Positions 3,969 to 38,931 of a stretch of DNA of 38,931 nucleotides are shown here, piece after piece. The notes under the pieces were generated by a model that was not told the origin of the DNA, made no database searches, and saw nothing but the letters and a program-made list of their open reading frames with translations. How positions within the stretch are numbered: the stretch's first letter is position 1; every line of letters starts with the position of its first letter. This stretch comes from Pseudomonadota bacterium. Its GTDB lineage: Bacteria > Desulfobacterota > Desulfobulbia > Desulfobulbales > Desulfocapsaceae. The translations under genes were made by a program, and so were the position numbers. The stretch spans positions 1 through 38,931 of the forward strand of contig JAHJKP010000006.1 in the NCBI GenBank assembly GCA_018821985.1, given 5' to 3'.

Positions 3969-4828
3969 TGGCCATATCACGTTTTTTTCTCTGGTTGGCA
4001 CTGGCCCTGACCGCTATCCTCCAGCCAGCCCTGGCGTTCAGTCAGAGCGGGATCTTTCCCCAGCGGATTGTCTCACTCGGGCCGATCAATACCGAAAATG
4101 TCTTTTTGCTGGGGGCGGGGGATCGTCTGGTGGCCGACACCAGCTATTGCGTGCATCCGGCAGCGGCCCGCGACAAGGTGAAGATCGGCTCGGTGATGCA
4201 GCTCAATATCGAACAAATCCTGAGCCTGCAGCCGGATCTGATCCTTGCCACCGGGCTGACCAGTCCGCAGCAGGTGGCTCAGTTGGCAGCCTCCGGGGTG
4301 CGGGTGGTTCATTTCCCGCAGCCTCAAGGTTTTGCCGCGATCTGCGCTCAGTTTCTGGAGCTTGGGAAGCTCCTGGGTCTTGAGGCCAGGGCCCGTGAGA
4401 TCATTGCTGAAGCGCAGAAGGAAGTCCGGGCCATCCAGCAGCGGATCAAGGAGCTGCCTGCCAGGAAGGTGTTTCTGCAGGTGGGCGCCCATCCCTTGTT
4501 TGCCTCGGTTCCAAGTTCCTTTACCAATGACTATATCGTGCTGGCCGGCGGCATCAACATTGCCGCCGGTCAGCACGATGGCCGCTATAACCGGGAAAAG
4601 GTGACGGCCCAGAACCCGGATGTGATCATTATAGCGGTCATGGGCAGCGAAGGGGGGATCGGTGCCAGGGAAAGAGACGAGTGGCTGCGTTTTGCGCCCA
4701 TCTCAGCGGTGCAGAACAGGCAGGTCTTTGTCGTGGATCCGGATATCATCTGCAGCCCCTCGCCCCTGACTTTTGTCAAGGGTCTGGTAGAGATCGCGGC
4801 GCTTATTCATCCGCAGGAAGGGCAATAG
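3968..4828 (+). CDS. btuF: Periplasmic corrinoid-binding protein, BtuF-like
   Basis: A 286-residue substrate-binding protein of the BtuF/FhuD (helical-backbone) class. A signal peptide (residues 1-24, ending near ALAFS) precedes QRIVSLGPINTENVFLLGAGDRLV, the usual N-terminal strand of this family. Lobe motifs IEQILSLQPDLILAT and VVHFPQPQGFAAI follow. Its ATG overlaps the stop of the receptor gene (TAATG), with GGAG about six bases upstream, so the two are translationally coupled and share the B12 riboswitch. No BtuC permease or BtuD ATPase follows, so this binding protein must use a transporter encoded elsewhere. The family is secure; the corrinoid ligand is inferred from context. Confidence 0.85.
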   Translation: MAISRFFLWLALALTAILQPALAFSQSGIFPQRIVSLGPINTENVFLLGAGDRLVADTSYCVHPAAARDKVKIGSVMQLNIEQILSLQPDLILATGLTSPQQVAQLAASGVRVVHFPQPQGFAAICAQFLELGKLLGLEARAREIIAEAQKEVRAIQQRIKELPARKVFLQVGAHPLFASVPSSFTNDYIVLAGGINIAAGQHDGRYNREKVTAQNPDVIIIAVMGSEGGIGARERDEWLRFAPISAVQNRQVFVVDPDIICSPSPLTFVKGLVEIAALIHPQEGQ

Positions 4829-5072
4829 CAACAATGTCTTCCTTGTCGATCGTTGTTCGCACGCTCCAGCTGGGACGGAGCATTGTGTGTCGATGCAATG
4901 TGGCCAAGCAGAAAACCGCTGTTTATTGATTCATTAAAACAGCAACTCGAAATTTGACTATCTGAAGCTGTGGTGGCATTCTAAAAATGAACATTTTTTT
5001 AAGAGTGGCTTAGCCTCTCCACGATCAGGTATTGGACAGGTGAATAAAATCATTTTATTTAAAGGAGTCCTT

Positions 5073-5495
5073 GTGAAAACTAAAATCCTCATTATCAGTT
5101 TGATCCTCCTGGTTGCCATTCAGTTTGTCCCGTACGGCAAAAATCATGTTAATCCCCAGGTTATCGCCGAACCTCAATGGGACAGTCCGGAGACAAGAAC
5201 CCTTTTTATGAGGACTTGCGGCGACTGTCACTCCTATGAGACTAAATGGCCGTGGTACAGCAGTGTTGCACCGGCCTCCTGGCTTGTTACCAGTGACGTA
5301 AATGAAGGGCGGCAGAATTTTAACGTTTCCGCCTGGAACCATCAGGAGAGGAACAAAGGCAACGAAGCTGCTTACGAGCTGCGTGAAGGTAAGATGCCGC
5401 CGCTGCCCTATCTTTCGGCACATCCGGAAGCGCGCTTAGGTGAGCAGGAAAAGGCGGCGTTGCTCAGCGGGATAAGCTCGACGTTTGGACACTAA
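5073..5495 (+). CDS. Small haem-binding domain protein with CxxCH
   Basis: A 140-residue protein with an N-terminal membrane anchor or signal segment ([15 protein letters not shown]). A single CGDCH c-type haem motif (Cys49, Cys52, His53) follows, then [19 protein letters not shown] and a [10 protein letters not shown] segment. This arrangement matches the haem-binding domain family (PF14376-like) found as small periplasmic cytochromes in many Proteobacteria and Bacteroidetes. The conserved Met-Pro-Pro near the C-terminus may supply the second haem ligand. I chose the GTG at 5073 because AAAGGAG lies five bases upstream. The electron partner is unknown and the neighbours do not help. Confidence 0.8.
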
Positions 5496-11171: not shown

Positions 11172-11353
11172 TTTCGGCGGTAGTTCATCTTGTCCGGGAA
11201 TGTTGGCCAACCATCGAAGATCAAAGATAATTCCCCATTCTGCTTGAGAATTTTACATCCTGCTGCTACAACATAGATGTGTTCTGAATTTTACAGTAGT
11301 TAATTGACTGACGTATGTTGTTCCCCCTTTTTTTTAACGTTTTTGGAGTCATT

Positions 11354-12160
11354 ATGGTATCCCCACGATTAATAGCAAAAATTGAGTCCGAAGAACCAAC
11401 CCTTCGATTGGCAGTTTTAATTGATGCTGACAATGCTCAAGCTGCTGTGATTGAAGGTCTACTTGCAGAAATTGCAAGATTTGGGGAAGCAACGGTGAGG
11501 CGAATTTATGGAGATTTCACTGCTCCAACGAGCGCTTCATGGAAAAAAGTGTTGCAGAAATATGCCATTAAGCCGGTTCAACAATTTGCGTACACAACCG
11601 GAAAGAATGCCACGGATAGCACTCTGATTATCGATGCGATGGATTTGTTGTACACCCGTAAATTTGATGGTTTTTGCCTAATCACAAGCGACAGTGATTT
11701 CACAGGTCTTGCGATGCGATTGCGTGAAGAGGGGCTTACGGTTCTTGGGTTTGGTGAAAAGAAAACACCGGATGCGTTCCGTAATGCCTGCCACAAGTTT
11801 GTGTTTACTGAAGTCCTTCGTCCAAGTACCTTAGTCAAGCCAGTCAGTCAGTCGTCAAAAGGTGAGAGTGAAAGAAAATCCGTGTCATCTCAGGTCCCTA
11901 CAGAAATAATAGAGCCAAGCCATGAATTTCCAAAAGAATTCGTCCTAACTGCTCTGGAACAGTCAACTGATGATGCTGGATGGGCACAGCTTGGTACTTT
12001 CGGGAGTTACCTTACAAAATTACAACCCGATTTCGACTCTAGGTTGTACGGTTACAAGAAGCTTTCTGATCTTGTTAAAGCAAAGACAGATCTCTTTGTG
12101 ACTGAAGAACGGCAAGCATCAGGATCAAATCAGAAAGTCTTGTATCTACGTGCGAAATAG
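11354..12160 (+). CDS. NYN-domain ribonuclease-like protein with C-terminal LOTUS/OST-HTH domain
   Basis: A 268-residue protein of the bacterial LabA/DUF88-like group. Residues about 17-155 form a NYN (PIN-like) domain with the acidic cluster expected for a metal-dependent RNase: VLIDADNAQ, then NATDSTLIIDAMDLLY and LITSDSDFTGLAMRLRE. A linker leads to an OST-HTH/LOTUS domain (about 198-265: WAQLGTFGSYL, then LYGYKKLSDLVK), an RNA-binding module. The ATG at 11354 has TGGAG five bases upstream. Base composition is clearly more A+T-rich than the cbi and DEAD-box genes on either side, which suggests separate ancestry. The RNA target is unknown. Confidence 0.87.
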   Translation: MVSPRLIAKIESEEPTLRLAVLIDADNAQAAVIEGLLAEIARFGEATVRRIYGDFTAPTSASWKKVLQKYAIKPVQQFAYTTGKNATDSTLIIDAMDLLYTRKFDGFCLITSDSDFTGLAMRLREEGLTVLGFGEKKTPDAFRNACHKFVFTEVLRPSTLVKPVSQSSKGESERKSVSSQVPTEIIEPSHEFPKEFVLTALEQSTDDAGWAQLGTFGSYLTKLQPDFDSRLYGYKKLSDLVKAKTDLFVTEERQASGSNQKVLYLRAK

Positions 12161-34976: not shown

Positions 34977-35028
34977 GGAGCCGTGGCGCAACGCTCAAGG
35001 ACAATAGTGCTTGTGGCGTAACGGCTCC
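34977..35028 (+). other. Inverted repeat between purC and the MarC gene
   Basis: GGAGCCGT (34977-34984) and ACGGCTCC (35021-35028) are perfect inverted repeats enclosing 36 bases with further partial complementarity. No T tract follows. It has no attC core sites. Confidence 0.45.
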
Positions 35029-35085
35029 TCCATTCTCGAGGGACGCGATCTCGTTTCACGGTTATTCTACGGGAGAATGAATGTC

Positions 35086-35715
35086 ATGCTCGATTTTACG
35101 GAATATACCAAGATCTTTATTGCCTTGCTGGCCATTGTCAATCCCATCGGGGCAATCCCCATTGTCATGGCCTTGACCGCAGATGCCTCGGAGGAGGAAT
35201 TCAAGCGGACCACCAAGACCACGGTTGTTGCTGTCCTGGTGATCCTGCTCACTGCCTTGTTGACGGGTGAAGTGCTGCTCGGTTTTTTTGGTATCAGCAT
35301 CAGCTCGTTCAGGGTCGGCGGTGGAATCTTGATCCTGCTCATGGCCATCTCCATGCTTCATGCCCGCCAGAGTCCGATCACCTTCAGCAAGGAGGAGGCC
35401 AGTGACGGGAACCGGGAATCGGTGGCAGTCGTTCCCATCTCCATGCCTCTGCTTGCAGGCCCCGGGGCCATCAGTACAGTCGTTCTCTATACCCAGAAAA
35501 GCCACGCACCTCTGCACTATCTGTGCATGGGTTTGGATATCTTGCTGCTGGTGCTGGTTCTGTGGGTCGCCTTCCTCTCCATTCCCTGGATCTCCAAACA
35601 TACCACCCAGACGGGTATCAATATCTTTTCACGGGTCATGGGGCTGATTCTGGCCGCCATTGCCGTTGAATTTATTGCCAATGGCTTGAAGGGCTTGTTC
35701 CCAGCCCTTGCCTGA
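35086..35715 (+). CDS. MarC-family integral membrane protein
   Basis: A 209-residue protein with six predicted transmembrane helices. FIALLAIVNPIGAIPIVMAL near the N-terminus is the family's NPxG motif, and a second such motif is replaced by LLAGPGAISTVVL in the middle, as is usual for MarC (UPF0056). These proteins were named for the E. coli mar locus but their transport function is unproven. GGGAG ten bases before the ATG at 35086 supports this start; an ATG three codons earlier is too close to that site. Confidence 0.9.
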   Translation: MLDFTEYTKIFIALLAIVNPIGAIPIVMALTADASEEEFKRTTKTTVVAVLVILLTALLTGEVLLGFFGISISSFRVGGGILILLMAISMLHARQSPITFSKEEASDGNRESVAVVPISMPLLAGPGAISTVVLYTQKSHAPLHYLCMGLDILLLVLVLWVAFLSIPWISKHTTQTGINIFSRVMGLILAAIAVEFIANGLKGLFPALA

Positions 35716-35726
35716 ATGATTCGAAC

Positions 35727-35775
35727 AAAAAAAAGCCATGATCGCCCATTTCCAGGGTGAGCATGGCTTTTTTTT
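35727..35775. terminator. Bidirectional intrinsic terminator after the MarC gene
   Basis: An AAGCCATG-type left arm (35733 onward) pairs with GCATGGCTT on the right (35761-35769), with a short inner CCC/GGG pairing. A tract of A lies on the left and T on the right. It separates the MarC gene from the gene cassettes to the right. Confidence 0.85.
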
Positions 35776-35930
35776 GTTCATGCTTTCGGCTGGCAAGATA
35801 TATGAAGTATGCCCCCGTATTTTAAAAGTCTGCTCGGTGCGCTACGCGTAATGATGAGACTAAAACACCTCGCGAACCTGATCCATAAGCCTGATATCGG
35901 GATTCGGATGAAATTGTGGTTTGTTTTCCT

Positions 35931-35959
35931 TTGACTTTCCATAATGCGTCCCATAGTAT
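35931..35959 (+). promoter_or_regulatory. Sigma-70-type promoter reading into the cassette array
   Basis: TTGACT (35931-35936, five of six matches to TTGACA) and TAGTAT (35954-35959, four of six) are separated by exactly 17 bases. It points to the right, about 150 bases before the first cassette, where the cassette promoter Pc of an integron would lie. Activity is inferred. Confidence 0.6.
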
Positions 35960-35991
35960 CGTAATATCTAGAAATCAACCAGAGAAGATGC

Positions 35992-36116
35992 AATAAGCGG
36001 ACAAGAAACTCTTTGAGTTTCTATGTTTCATTGAGCAATATAAAAATAAGCGGAAACTCCGTCCACCTATAAGGGGTGATATGATGGAAAAATTTCCACT
36101 TATTACACTGTTAAGC
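35992..36116. repeat. AATAAGYGGA repeats at the cassette entry point (possible attI-like region)
   Basis: AATAAGCGGA occurs at 35992-36001 and 36045-36054 in direct orientation, and its near copy lies inverted at 36095-36104 (TCCACTTATT). They surround a hairpin (AGAAACTC-TTT-GAGTTTCT, 36004-36022) and end at the core GTTAAGC (36110-36116) where the first cassette begins. Direct and inverted integrase-binding repeats next to a single core site are a feature of attI sites. The assignment is an inference; a decayed attC is the alternative. Confidence 0.4.
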
Positions 36117-36125
36117 GTAAAAATC

Positions 36126-36845
36126 ATGAAAACGAAATTCGGCATACTTCTATCTATCTTTCTCCTCATTGTCGCATGTAACAGTGCACAATCAGAATCC
36201 AAGGCAGACGTTCCAAAGGCATTCGCCAGTGTTATTCCAACTGAGTTAAAAGGAAATTTAAAACTGATTGAGGTTAAAGATCGTTGCGAAGGCTGTGAAC
36301 CCTGGAGGTATATCGATTATTACAGCAATGACAGCAACGAACCGTTAAAAAAAGAAAAAGTATCCGTTCAAACAGGTTATCGTGCAATGTATGCCTATCC
36401 AGGCACGGAATACTTTTCAAATACAAAAATAGAGCAAAGTATATCAGGCAACTATCCTCAAGATAAAGCTACGGTGATTGATGCGATAACCCATGAATAT
36501 AATAGAAAAAAAGAAAGGGTCAAAAGTTACCTCGAGCAGACACCTGGCCTTAGGGAAAAAATGGAGCCATTCAAGGCTAAAGGGAAGGACCATATAACTT
36601 TTGAGCACGAAACAATAAATGGCTACGAATACGTGTCATATACTGAAAATGTCATTGGTTTACTCGGCAATACTATAAGCCAAATAATACATATTTTCGT
36701 GCCGGAGCAAGAAATCATTATCACGGCATATTTGTTACGCCAAAAAAATCAAAAGTTCAAAGATATCGAAGAATTTTTAGGGTTAAAGAAAGATTTTATC
36801 GAGAGCTACACTGAATTTATTAAAGAGAATCGCTTAACAAAATAA
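36126..36845 (+). CDS. Cassette 1: putative lipoprotein of unknown function
   Basis: A 239-residue protein with a lipoprotein signal peptide (MKTKFGILLSIFLLIVAC, lipidated Cys18). The mature part has a DRCEGCEPW segment with two cysteines, a charged middle (ITHEYNRKKERVKSYLEQ) and a beta-rich C-terminal half. I recognise no family. The ATG at 36126 is chosen because the cassette itself begins at 36111; ATGs at 36081 and 36084 have a better ribosome binding site (AAGGGG) but lie outside the cassette, so a natural fusion to upstream sequence is possible. The stop codon lies within attC1, as is common in cassettes. Confidence 0.75.
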   Translation: MKTKFGILLSIFLLIVACNSAQSESKADVPKAFASVIPTELKGNLKLIEVKDRCEGCEPWRYIDYYSNDSNEPLKKEKVSVQTGYRAMYAYPGTEYFSNTKIEQSISGNYPQDKATVIDAITHEYNRKKERVKSYLEQTPGLREKMEPFKAKGKDHITFEHETINGYEYVSYTENVIGLLGNTISQIIHIFVPEQEIIITAYLLRQKNQKFKDIEEFLGLKKDFIESYTEFIKENRLTK

Positions 36846-36922
36846 TTCAGCGGATGGCGTTAACGTTGGCGGCGCTGACGCGGCAAGTTCTTTGGCGCCA
36901 CCGCTGATTATCAGCGTTGGGC
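36832..36922 (+). other. attC site 1
   Basis: R'' GCTTAAC (36832-36838) and R' GTTGGGC (36916-36922) both fit RYYYAAC/GTTRRRY. The inner arms ATAATTCAGCGG (36842-36853) and CCGCTGATTAT (36901-36911) pair except for one extra T on the left. A second unpaired base, A36854, precedes TGGCG/CGCCA pairing. Extrahelical bases in one arm are what IntI recognises in folded attC. Confidence 0.9.
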
Positions 36923-36964
36923 CTCAAAAACAATTCTACATAAAGATTTGGACTAACTTTAAAG

Positions 36965-37570
36965 TTGAAGAATGTTGAAAAAATATTAGCAATTGCATCA
37001 TTCGTAATTGCATTAATAGCTATAGGCATATCGCTGAAAAGTTGTGATATTTCTCAACGTGCTCTTGAAATCACCGAGAGTGACTTTATGGGATCAAGAA
37101 CGTTAGTTTTGATTGCATCATATATGAAAAATAACGAAACCATCAAATGGGCTCCCGTGGATGATCAAATAACACTTCAAAGTATGCGAATTATTTTTCC
37201 GCCAATACTAAATGTTAATCCTTGGCCAGTTTTACCACCTCAATGGGAGTTGCCAACACCTGTACTTACCAATTCTCTGAGAAATAGCGTTCTAAAAGAA
37301 ATTAAAAGGCCACCGAAAGATCAGTCATTAGTTGGTCTTAACAGAATGTTGCCAATAATAGTCGAAGCAGCTTATATAGCTAAAGGTCAAGTGATAAACG
37401 TAAGGAGTTGTTACAATATTCTTTTTGATTTATCAATTTCGGATAGAGATTTCGTCCCACCACAAATTGATTATAGAGGTTCTGTTCTTGTTGCTCATAC
37501 ACCTAATTTAGAACCATCTTTTTTGAATAGTATGTGGAAAGAGCAGCTCTCTACAATGAAGGAAAAATAA
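36965..37570 (+). CDS. Cassette 2: single-pass membrane protein of unknown function
   Basis: A 201-residue protein with one N-terminal transmembrane helix (ILAIASFVIALIAIGISL, about residues 7-24) and a soluble remainder containing SQRALEITESDFMGSRTLVL. Similar small anchored proteins of unknown function are frequent in accessory regions. The only start that keeps the membrane helix is a TTG at 36965; no ribosome binding site is seen, a common trait of cassette genes. The stop lies six bases before the attC2 R''. A role in envelope stress or phage defence would be speculation. Confidence 0.7.
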   Translation: MKNVEKILAIASFVIALIAIGISLKSCDISQRALEITESDFMGSRTLVLIASYMKNNETIKWAPVDDQITLQSMRIIFPPILNVNPWPVLPPQWELPTPVLTNSLRNSVLKEIKRPPKDQSLVGLNRMLPIIVEAAYIAKGQVINVRSCYNILFDLSISDRDFVPPQIDYRGSVLVAHTPNLEPSFLNSMWKEQLSTMKEK

Positions 37571-37575
37571 AATTG

Positions 37576-37702
37576 GCCCAACAAGACATTCCAGTGGAAA
37601 ATCAAGGGTTAGGTTTATCAAAGTTCCATTGGTAATTTTGACGTTCAGTGTTTCAAACAAACACTTCGTATCCCCTGTTTTCCACTGAATTCGGCGTTCG
37701 GT
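37576..37702 (+). other. attC site 2
   Basis: R'' GCCCAAC (37576-37582) is the reverse complement of the core at 36916. R' is GTTCGGT (37696-37702), with C where GTTRRRY expects a purine. Arms ATTCCAGTGGAAAA (37588-37601) and TTTTCCACTGAAT (37678-37690) pair except for one extra C on the left. At 127 bases it is longer than its neighbours but within the attC range. Confidence 0.87.
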
Positions 37703-37714
37703 GTAAGAGAATAA

Positions 37715-38734
37715 ATGACAATCAACCTTGATTCTTCAGCGAGGCTTCTACATGAAGCGATTCAGCAAATGGGTTGGTCTTCAGACCCAGCATTACTCGT
37801 TGATAGAGTAAAACGGTTAGATCTTGGATTACCTGCTGAAGATGAATTTATTTTCATATTATCTTGGCTTGGAAAATGCGCTCTCACACATAAATTAGAC
37901 CAAAGTCAATTCCCTCCTAGGTCTAAAGATACTTATCAAGTGCCTGACTTATTAGCTTCTTTCCAAACCAGAGTTGGCCCTAAGCTGGTACTCATTGAGA
38001 TAAAAGTAACAAACAAGCAAAAATTGAAATGGAAAGCAGATTATTTTGGAAAACTTAAAAGATATTCAGACCTGCTTGGTATCCCGTTGCTTGTAGCATG
38101 GAAGTTCTATGGTCTGTGGCTTTTGGTCGATATAGAATGTTTTCAAAAAGCAACATCAAATTTCCATTTGTCACTAGAAACAGCGATGAAGAATAATCTG
38201 ATGAGCTTCCTTGCTGGAGATTTTGGCTATGTATTTAAACCAAATGTTGGTCTTCATTTTGTCATAAAGAAAGATAAACTTGTTGACCGAAAAGCAACTG
38301 GCGAGAGTTCAGAAGAACAACAATGGCTGGTCAGAATTGAAAAAGCTTATTTCACAAATTCGGAAGGGGTCGAGACCACTAATCTTCCAAGTGGTCTTTG
38401 GCCTTTATTCATTTCTGCTGGACCAGAGGCGCATGATAAAGTTGAACTAGATTATATCTATCAACGCTTTGTAATCCCAGACAATAACGGAATAAAGTTT
38501 GCTCACACAGCTCTGCCTATATTGTTAAATTTCTCAAATAATGAGGAAGAAAAAATTCATTGGCGAAAACAACTTGAAGAGCATCATTATCCAGTCGAAT
38601 ATACAATATTTTGTGATGCAGCAAAGGCTGGTATTGAAAGAAAATTCGTGCAATATATTTTTCATGTTCAGCCTTTCGAGATTCCAAGTTTTCTCAAAGA
38701 ATTAAAGATAACCGAACAAGGTTTTTCAACCTGA
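37715..38734 (+). CDS. Cassette 3: PD-(D/E)xK nuclease-like protein
   Basis: A 339-residue protein. VPDLLASFQ (Asp78) followed by LVLIEIKVTN (Glu95, Lys97) fits the D-x(n)-ExK catalytic core of PD-(D/E)xK nucleases, with the D and E on successive strands. The following KLKRYSDLLGIPLLVAWKFY has the helix and strand expected after the core. About 200 further residues are unrecognised and may form a partner or DNA-binding domain. The ATG lies 13 bases after the attC2 core, and the last eight codons lie inside attC3. Restriction-like or phage-defence activity is plausible but inferred only. Confidence 0.75.
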   Translation: MTINLDSSARLLHEAIQQMGWSSDPALLVDRVKRLDLGLPAEDEFIFILSWLGKCALTHKLDQSQFPPRSKDTYQVPDLLASFQTRVGPKLVLIEIKVTNKQKLKWKADYFGKLKRYSDLLGIPLLVAWKFYGLWLLVDIECFQKATSNFHLSLETAMKNNLMSFLAGDFGYVFKPNVGLHFVIKKDKLVDRKATGESSEEQQWLVRIEKAYFTNSEGVETTNLPSGLWPLFISAGPEAHDKVELDYIYQRFVIPDNNGIKFAHTALPILLNFSNNEEEKIHWRKQLEEHHYPVEYTIFCDAAKAGIERKFVQYIFHVQPFEIPSFLKELKITEQGFST

Positions 38735-38799
38735 CCGCCGGGAGCTGCGTTCTCCGAATCTTGTGCAATGGCGGCAGCAGGTTAAAAACGGCGTTATGT
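38711..38799 (+). other. attC site 3
   Basis: R'' ACCGAAC (38711-38717) is the exact reverse complement of the core at 37696, and R' is GTTATGT (38793-38799). The arms GTTTTTCAACCTG (38721-38733) and CAGGTTAAAAAC (38778-38789) pair except for one extra C on the left; CCGCC/GGCGG extends the stem after an internal loop. Confidence 0.9.
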
Positions 38800-38819
38800 G
38801 TAAATCAAGAAACTGATCA

Positions 38820-38931
38820 ATGGCAAATAACTGGAACATACCTGCCTGGCTAGAGAAAGAAGTCAGGGAAAGAGACAAGGTGTGTGTGTATTGTGCTGTT
38901 GAGTTCACTCCAGCTAAAGTATCTAAAAAAA
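38820..38931 (+). CDS. Cassette 4: start of a CxxC (HNH-like) protein, truncated by window edge
   Basis: The first 37 codons of a gene starting 26 bases after the attC3 core. WNIPAWLEKEVRERDKVCVY followed by a further Cys gives a CxxC (Cys22, Cys25) after a basic helix, the usual N-terminal lead-in of HNH endonucleases whose catalytic HNH would follow. Only the start is visible, so the family call is tentative. No stop, ribosome binding site or attC can be seen. Confidence 0.6.
   Translation, partial: MANNWNIPAWLEKEVRERDKVCVYCAVEFTPAKVSKK

Follow-up and report, generated by a model that had tools for sequence, protein, structure and literature searches.

A cassette array at an attI site without an adjacent integrase gene in a Desulfocapsaceae genome, probably fed in trans by an intact IntI

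The DNA analysed here, a stretch of 38,931 nucleotides referred to as the window (contig JAHJKP010000006.1 of assembly GCA_018821985.1, a Pseudomonadota bacterium placed by GTDB in the Desulfocapsaceae), ends in a genuine integron cassette array. The array lies at an attI site next to marC, where the integrase gene intI is represented by a dead 5' stub, and an intact integrase (IntI) is encoded on another contig of the same genome, C16. We consider it probable that this intI-less platform is fed at its attI by the C16 IntI acting in trans. The evidence supports the view, already taken in an initial annotation made from the letters of the window, that the array is the cargo of a chromosomal or environmental integron. 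That annotation gave the feature as 36110..38931, a range that misses the start of the feature, since attI and the intI stub occupy 35828-36112. It also overlooked the attI, the stub, the integrase on the other contig and the sister loci. The left end of the platform is composed as follows:

35077..35715, forward strand: marC (PF01914, 193.5 bits), the conserved left neighbour of the platform
35828..35942, reverse strand: dead 5' stub of intI, about 40 codons, frameshifted and without the catalytic part
36018..36112, forward strand: attI, with the cassette junction at 36109/36110, between ACT and GTT
36071..36110, forward strand: leader reading frame with a Shine-Dalgarno-like AAGGGG and an ATGATG start (MMEKFPLITL..), crossing the cut

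Over its 285 bases, the interval 35828-36112 matches the start of intI together with the attI on C16 at 90% identity. The two copies agree up to the junction of ACT and GTT and diverge afterwards, which puts the boundary between attI and cassette 1 at 36109/36110. The stub matches IntI residues 7-57 (tblastn). Its frame shifts after MESQRK. All four copies linked to marC, the window's included, share this shifted reading, and that of the related genome G002 has a stop in addition. The C16 IntI scores 429 bits against a profile cut-off of 265 and is the sole match above the cut-off in this genome (G000). R1, an attI sequence model made from 16 sites, scores the window attI at 96.2 bits, the window sequence itself being in the model. 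Of the marks of a complete integron, an attI beside the first cassette is present and an intact intI beside that attI is absent; with at least two attC sites and no intI nearby, the array belongs to the class of attC clusters without an integrase (CALIN). A scan of 35700-36200 for a promoter (Pc) returned two sites against 1.2 expected, not clearly above chance.

Two origins of the array that would dispense with a separate platform bear on these data. The window contig ends within the array, which continues past 38931, and C16 ends 421 bases past its attI, with IS-like (insertion sequence-like) sequence recognised there by eye; the array could thus be the distal piece of the C16 integron, separated from it by an assembly break. 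We find this highly improbable: the window has an attI of its own, which differs from the C16 attI (90% identity), and the marC junction is common to four assemblies, of which G002 covers marC to mlaE on one contig. Alternatively, the place beside marC where the cassettes came in might be a non-canonical genomic site (attG), the use of attG sites by IntI being reported in PMC12901181 and PMC12444791. We give this next to no credence; it is contradicted by the intI stub and by some 285 bases of homology with the cognate attI.

The array itself consists of three attC sites and four cassettes:

36111..36916, forward strand: cassette 1, gene 36126-36845, putative lipoprotein (by eye), family not recognised
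36832..36922, forward strand: attC 1, cores GCTTAAC/GTTGGGC, found by our scanner and the covariance model
36917..37696, forward strand: cassette 2, gene 36965-37570, unrecognised family with an N-terminal hydrophobic stretch (by eye)
37576..37702, forward strand: attC 2, cores GCCCAAC/GTTCGGT, found by our scanner; the covariance match ends early, at 37649
37697..38793, forward strand: cassette 3, gene 37715-38734, Hjc-like nuclease domain (PF01870, E 8e-5)
38711..38799, forward strand: attC 3, cores ACCGAAC/GTTATGT, found by our scanner and the covariance model
38794..38931, forward strand: cassette 4, cut by the contig end, with an HNH-like start (by eye only)

The sites have exactly the boundaries given in the initial annotation, and our own attC scanner, which scores cores and arm pairing, independently places them first to third in the window (scores 49.6, 45.5 and 40.0; next-best site 37.0). 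In 100 dinucleotide shuffles of 36101-38931 the maximum score was 37.6, and the third-best site in any shuffle reached at most 27.4. The extrahelical left-arm bases T, C and C described in the initial annotation are present in attC 1-3 when the arms are aligned, and the self-consistency that it found most telling holds in all three complete cassettes: the 5' core is the exact reverse complement of the cassette's own R'' (GTTAAGC/GCTTAAC, GTTGGGC/GCCCAAC and GTTCGGT/ACCGAAC). Of the two checks it suggested, the covariance search was run with a model of type R2, built from 22 attC sites of other loci and none from the window. In 36100-38931 the model matched attC 1 (36832-36922, 38.3 bits, E 3e-8) and attC 3 (38711-38799, 20.9 bits, E 6e-4) and attC 2 by its left end only (37576-37649, 16 bits, E 0.009), thus finding all three left ends and the correct 3' ends of two sites. 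One model site comes from a stretch of G012 C45 that is 92% identical to attC 1, so that the test is not fully independent for this site. In a whole-window scan with filters off, the model gave short, wrong-ended matches at attC 1 and 2 (E about 0.4) and missed attC 3; attC 2 is absent from its match list for the own genome. In the folding check, the bottom strands of attC 1, 2 and 3 as single-stranded DNA fold only mildly better than shuffles (z -2.0, -2.5 and -1.2), and attC 1 folds better as the top strand.

The cargo conforms to the expectation of unrecognised or nuclease-like proteins, two having no Pfam match and one, from cassette 3, a weak match to Hjc-type Holliday-junction resolvases. 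The NCBIfam Hjc model gives the cassette 3 protein 24.2 bits, below its cut-off of 70 bits, and among 78 relatives searched at E 1e-10 the gene was matched in its own genome only. No functional match was found for the proteins of cassettes 1, 2 and 4 in Pfam, NCBIfam or PADLOC, no family match for the 37 residues at the start of cassette 4, no PADLOC defence model for any of the four cassettes, and nothing within the array in Rfam at gathering scores.

The history of the platform can be read from the same locus in related genomes. marC was found in 16 of 17 genus genomes searched. Behind it, four of the 16 (G000, G012, G006 and G002) have this stub and attI, and the remaining 12, among which G004 and G001 are readable only 200-300 bases past marC, have other sequence. 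In a blastn comparison of window positions 35000-38931, identity to G012, G006 and G002 is 96.6%, 92.2% and 90.9% as far as window positions 36113, 36112 and 36113, where homology ends, at most four bases from the attI cut. Within the cassettes blastn found no match to G006 or G002; one further G012 match covers 81 bases at attC 1. The first cassettes of the four orthologous loci carry different reading frames, and this cassette turnover at attI is an indirect sign of an array open to capture.

The right side of the locus is visible in G002, where a single contig carries marC, attI, a cyclase-like cassette, an SMR-transporter-like cassette (names by eye), tRNA-Leu and mlaE; no integron-integrase match was found on this contig. 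The integron-free site is seen in G011, with marC, tRNA-Leu and mlaE on one contig, and G016 has marC and tRNA-Leu together. In G000, tRNA-Leu and mlaE lie near the end of contig C2 with cassettes beyond them. Two C2 cassettes, one of which is cut by an apparent IS end, are 99.5% and 97.9% identical to G012 cassettes located 2.5-3.4 kb behind attI. From this synteny we infer that the window array, on C33, continues on C2. If C33 and C2 join, the proximal part of the array is new and the distal part old, the pattern expected if cassettes enter at attI. It is here that the window would differ from a fossil, a CALIN left to decay after the loss of intI and capturing no more cassettes. The frameshifted stub agrees with such a fossil, and CALINs are described as proposed degraded integrons (PMC9024848). 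We nevertheless judge it unlikely: first cassettes differ in four orthologous loci although the sequence up to attI is 91-97% identical, the two distal cassettes are shared with G012 at the identities given above, and the cores and attC sites of the window are intact.

The marC locus is one of several attI-like places in the genus. R1 matches 16 of the 17 genus genomes at E 0.01 or better. Among 22 places scoring at least 50 bits, the IntI in cis is complete or almost so at four (344-354 of 354 residues). At three more, intI is broken or partial, with 258, 124 and 83 residues, and at the other 15 no more than 57 residues are left. All 16 model sites are among the 22 (four full, three broken, nine with a stub or no intI), so R1 itself added six. 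Five of the 15 stub or no-intI places lack ACTGTT, and four of these five lack GTT at the cut. Excluding the window and its three sisters, 11 further stub or no-intI places remain, five of them with a matching cassette. The places in G008, G004 and G014 share one left neighbour and have different genes to the right. G006 C42 and G002 C7 share another left neighbour; without GTT at the cut and counted among the 22, they are probably relics. Partial attI-like matches on G000 C19 and C39 look like relics and were left out of the platform count. In G006 and G002, homologues of the NYN-like gene at window 11315-12160 lie behind an attI relic. The same was considered for the gene of the window, where no attI-like sequence is present.

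Cassettes behind these places were assessed by asking whether the core at the cut has an exact attC-like match within 3 kb behind attI. This was so in 10 of 15 loci, against 10 of 206 swapped cores; G000 C16, G011 C81 and G011 C183, with short right sequence, and the four places without GTT were left out. Exact matches occur in seven of the 11 stub or no-intI loci among the 15 (the window and G012 C112, and at other positions G008, G013, G012 C151, G009 and G003 C15). Three of the seven exact sites, the window's not among them, also belong to model R2, so that R2 matches on them lack independence; R2 plays no part in the core test.

Taken together, these observations fit a platform that would have lost its intI, keeping attI, a short stub and a cassette array between marC and the tRNA-Leu gene. 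New cassettes would enter the marC-linked attI through the intact C16 IntI acting in trans, an activity inferred from sequence. The marC-linked attI sites form a clade apart from the intI-linked ones (support 0.993, seven sequences), and the varied stub lengths suggest that an intI-attI unit was copied and that the copies lost intI afterwards. Several points weigh against this account. The C33-C2 link comes from synteny, not assembly. Within the marC clade, conservation of attI is no stronger than that of the dead stub (90.2% and 95.3% between G000 and G006). In G002 the first core matches its R'' at five of seven bases, the last attC has no recognisable R', and an IntI of the same profile family is encoded elsewhere, with no R1 match beside it (this genome is 83% complete). 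Five of the 15 loci in the core test lack an exact match, and with one mismatch allowed the result, 13 of 15 against 75 of 206 swapped cores, is little better than chance. The intI-linked attI sites of G012 C45 and G011 C183 read GAT, not GTT, at the cut. Finally, homologous exchange of whole arrays among relatives could also yield different first cassettes without IntI acting at the marC-linked attI, and with one genome per species such exchange is inseparable from capture. We hold it to be very unlikely, as the breakpoints fall at most four bases from the attI cut in three comparisons, a point at which exchange through crossovers in the flanks should not end.

The platform at marC, probably fed in trans, may be one case of a more general arrangement, which we advance tentatively. 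The integron of this family would be a distributed system, in which attI landing pads at several dispersed places, each copied from the 5' end of intI together with attI, are all served by a single IntI acting in trans. The intI-attI module would multiply round the chromosome, with extra integrase genes decaying and attI copies staying alike within each genome, and many so-called CALINs would be living, expandable platforms. At E 1e-5, R1 matches 28 of 79 family genomes, 13 of 14 in the window's genus and 15 of 65 outside it. Twenty places from seven non-genus genomes were taken by score and number, not at random, and exact own-core matches were found in five of the 19 with enough sequence, against four of 330 swapped. 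In three of these five (G050 982416, G103 C114 and G095 C78) a full intI lies in cis, which weighs against the distributed arrangement; the other two (G050 556938 and 2500954) lack one.

G050, a two-contig genome from another genus, has six attI-like places, one by a full IntI, one by a broken IntI and four with no intI match within 1.7 kb; a second full IntI, at 3265233, has no R1 match beside it. At 556938, intI-less over 1.7 kb to the left, four attC-like sites follow in a perfect chain (scores 32.8-37.5, each modest alone). One attC-like site follows 2500954, and none was found at the remaining two intI-less places, one of which lacks GTT. Near-identical group II intron maturase-like frames (L233 and L231, by eye) lie to the right of two attI-like places in this genome. 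G038 has seven places with intI fragments of 28-160 residues, none with an exact core match. Three of its attI copies (L234, L237 and L240) are identical over the 12 bases that begin at the cut (GTTAAATGAGAC), perhaps reflecting the same first cassette or a copied unit. Over their last 36 bases, 27 chosen attI sites have a mean identity of 90.7% when both members of a pair come from one genome (39 pairs). The mean is 84.5% for the 35 pairs drawn from different genomes of one genus and 55.0% for the 277 pairs that span two genera, a gradient that fits lineage-wise spread, concerted change, or both. The flanks of 80 named IntI loci yielded 44 attC candidates over both strands, of which 21, from six loci, were kept, some of these being one site read from both strands; adjacent pairs are chain-consistent in 11 of 12 cases. 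The small number of attC sites there may be due to many IntI contigs ending close to the integrase gene.

One more feature is apparent in the attI sites. Among 15 attI examined, 13 have ATG at -29 and -26 from the cut, 11 have a G-rich Shine-Dalgarno-like stretch before that ATG (counted by eye), and in 14 the leader frame is open beyond the cut. In the window the leader runs in frame into the lipoprotein gene of cassette 1, whose frame is open from the attI ATG. The leader start codon may assist translation of the first cassette, which would then be expressed from the leader. By its position the leader recalls ORF11 of attI1 in class 1 integrons, likewise a short frame that lies within attI ahead of the first cassette, and it may have a similar role.

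Among known systems, the window array shares with the CALINs of IntegronFinder at least two attC sites and the lack of an intact intI beside them. It differs in that its first cassette adjoins a cognate attI which still has an intI stub, in that four species have this locus in common, and in turning over at its attI end. According to PMC9024848, CALINs and complete integrons are about equally common (2961 and 2760 in a survey that it quotes), and attI goes undetected outside class 1; a locus of this kind would therefore be reported as a plain CALIN. The sedentary chromosomal integrons of Xanthomonas at the ilvD locus likewise occupy a fixed locus, with intI degraded or truncated in some genomes and further CALINs elsewhere (PMC12444791). 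Unlike them, the genome studied here has an intact intI at another locus and copies of the attI of that C16 intI at several loci. Mobilisation or capture of CALIN cassettes in trans is already in print (PMC12444791 and PMC9668308). For the attI-bearing, multi-locus form no printed account was found: in the open-access literature we found no paper on dispersed intI-less attI copies served by one integrase. Should many CALINs retain a cognate attI that is fed in trans, a genome would be able to capture cassettes at several sites and not at one, each with its own neighbours, and the origin of CALINs could be tested by looking for lineage-specific attI ahead of them.

Several minor observations concern the rest of the genome. 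By eye, IS-like sequences interrupt both of its integron arrays, at the end of C16 (L013, about 4820-5099) and at the end of C2 (L224), and these interruptions coincide with contig ends. The nearest named integrase loci carry the labels Desulfocapsaceae and Desulfocapsa. A relic of the intI 5' region without attI lies on C19 (L099, 3018-3121), just before an antiporter-like gene (by eye). Clusters of adjacent tyrosine recombinase reading frames occur on C28 (L014) and C42 (L015) of G000, and match the integrase profile partly, far below its cut-off. Further attC-like sites scoring 17.6-27.2 bits with model R2 are present on C4 (20721, 21741 and 24925, forward strand; 696 and 1435, reverse strand) and C44 (60672, 76078 and 78246, reverse strand); no attI-like sequence was found in the stretches examined there, and the sites are possible CALINs or lone cassettes. 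Elsewhere in the window, a cobalamin riboswitch (1588-1778, 114.6 bits) precedes an outer-membrane-receptor-like gene (by eye).

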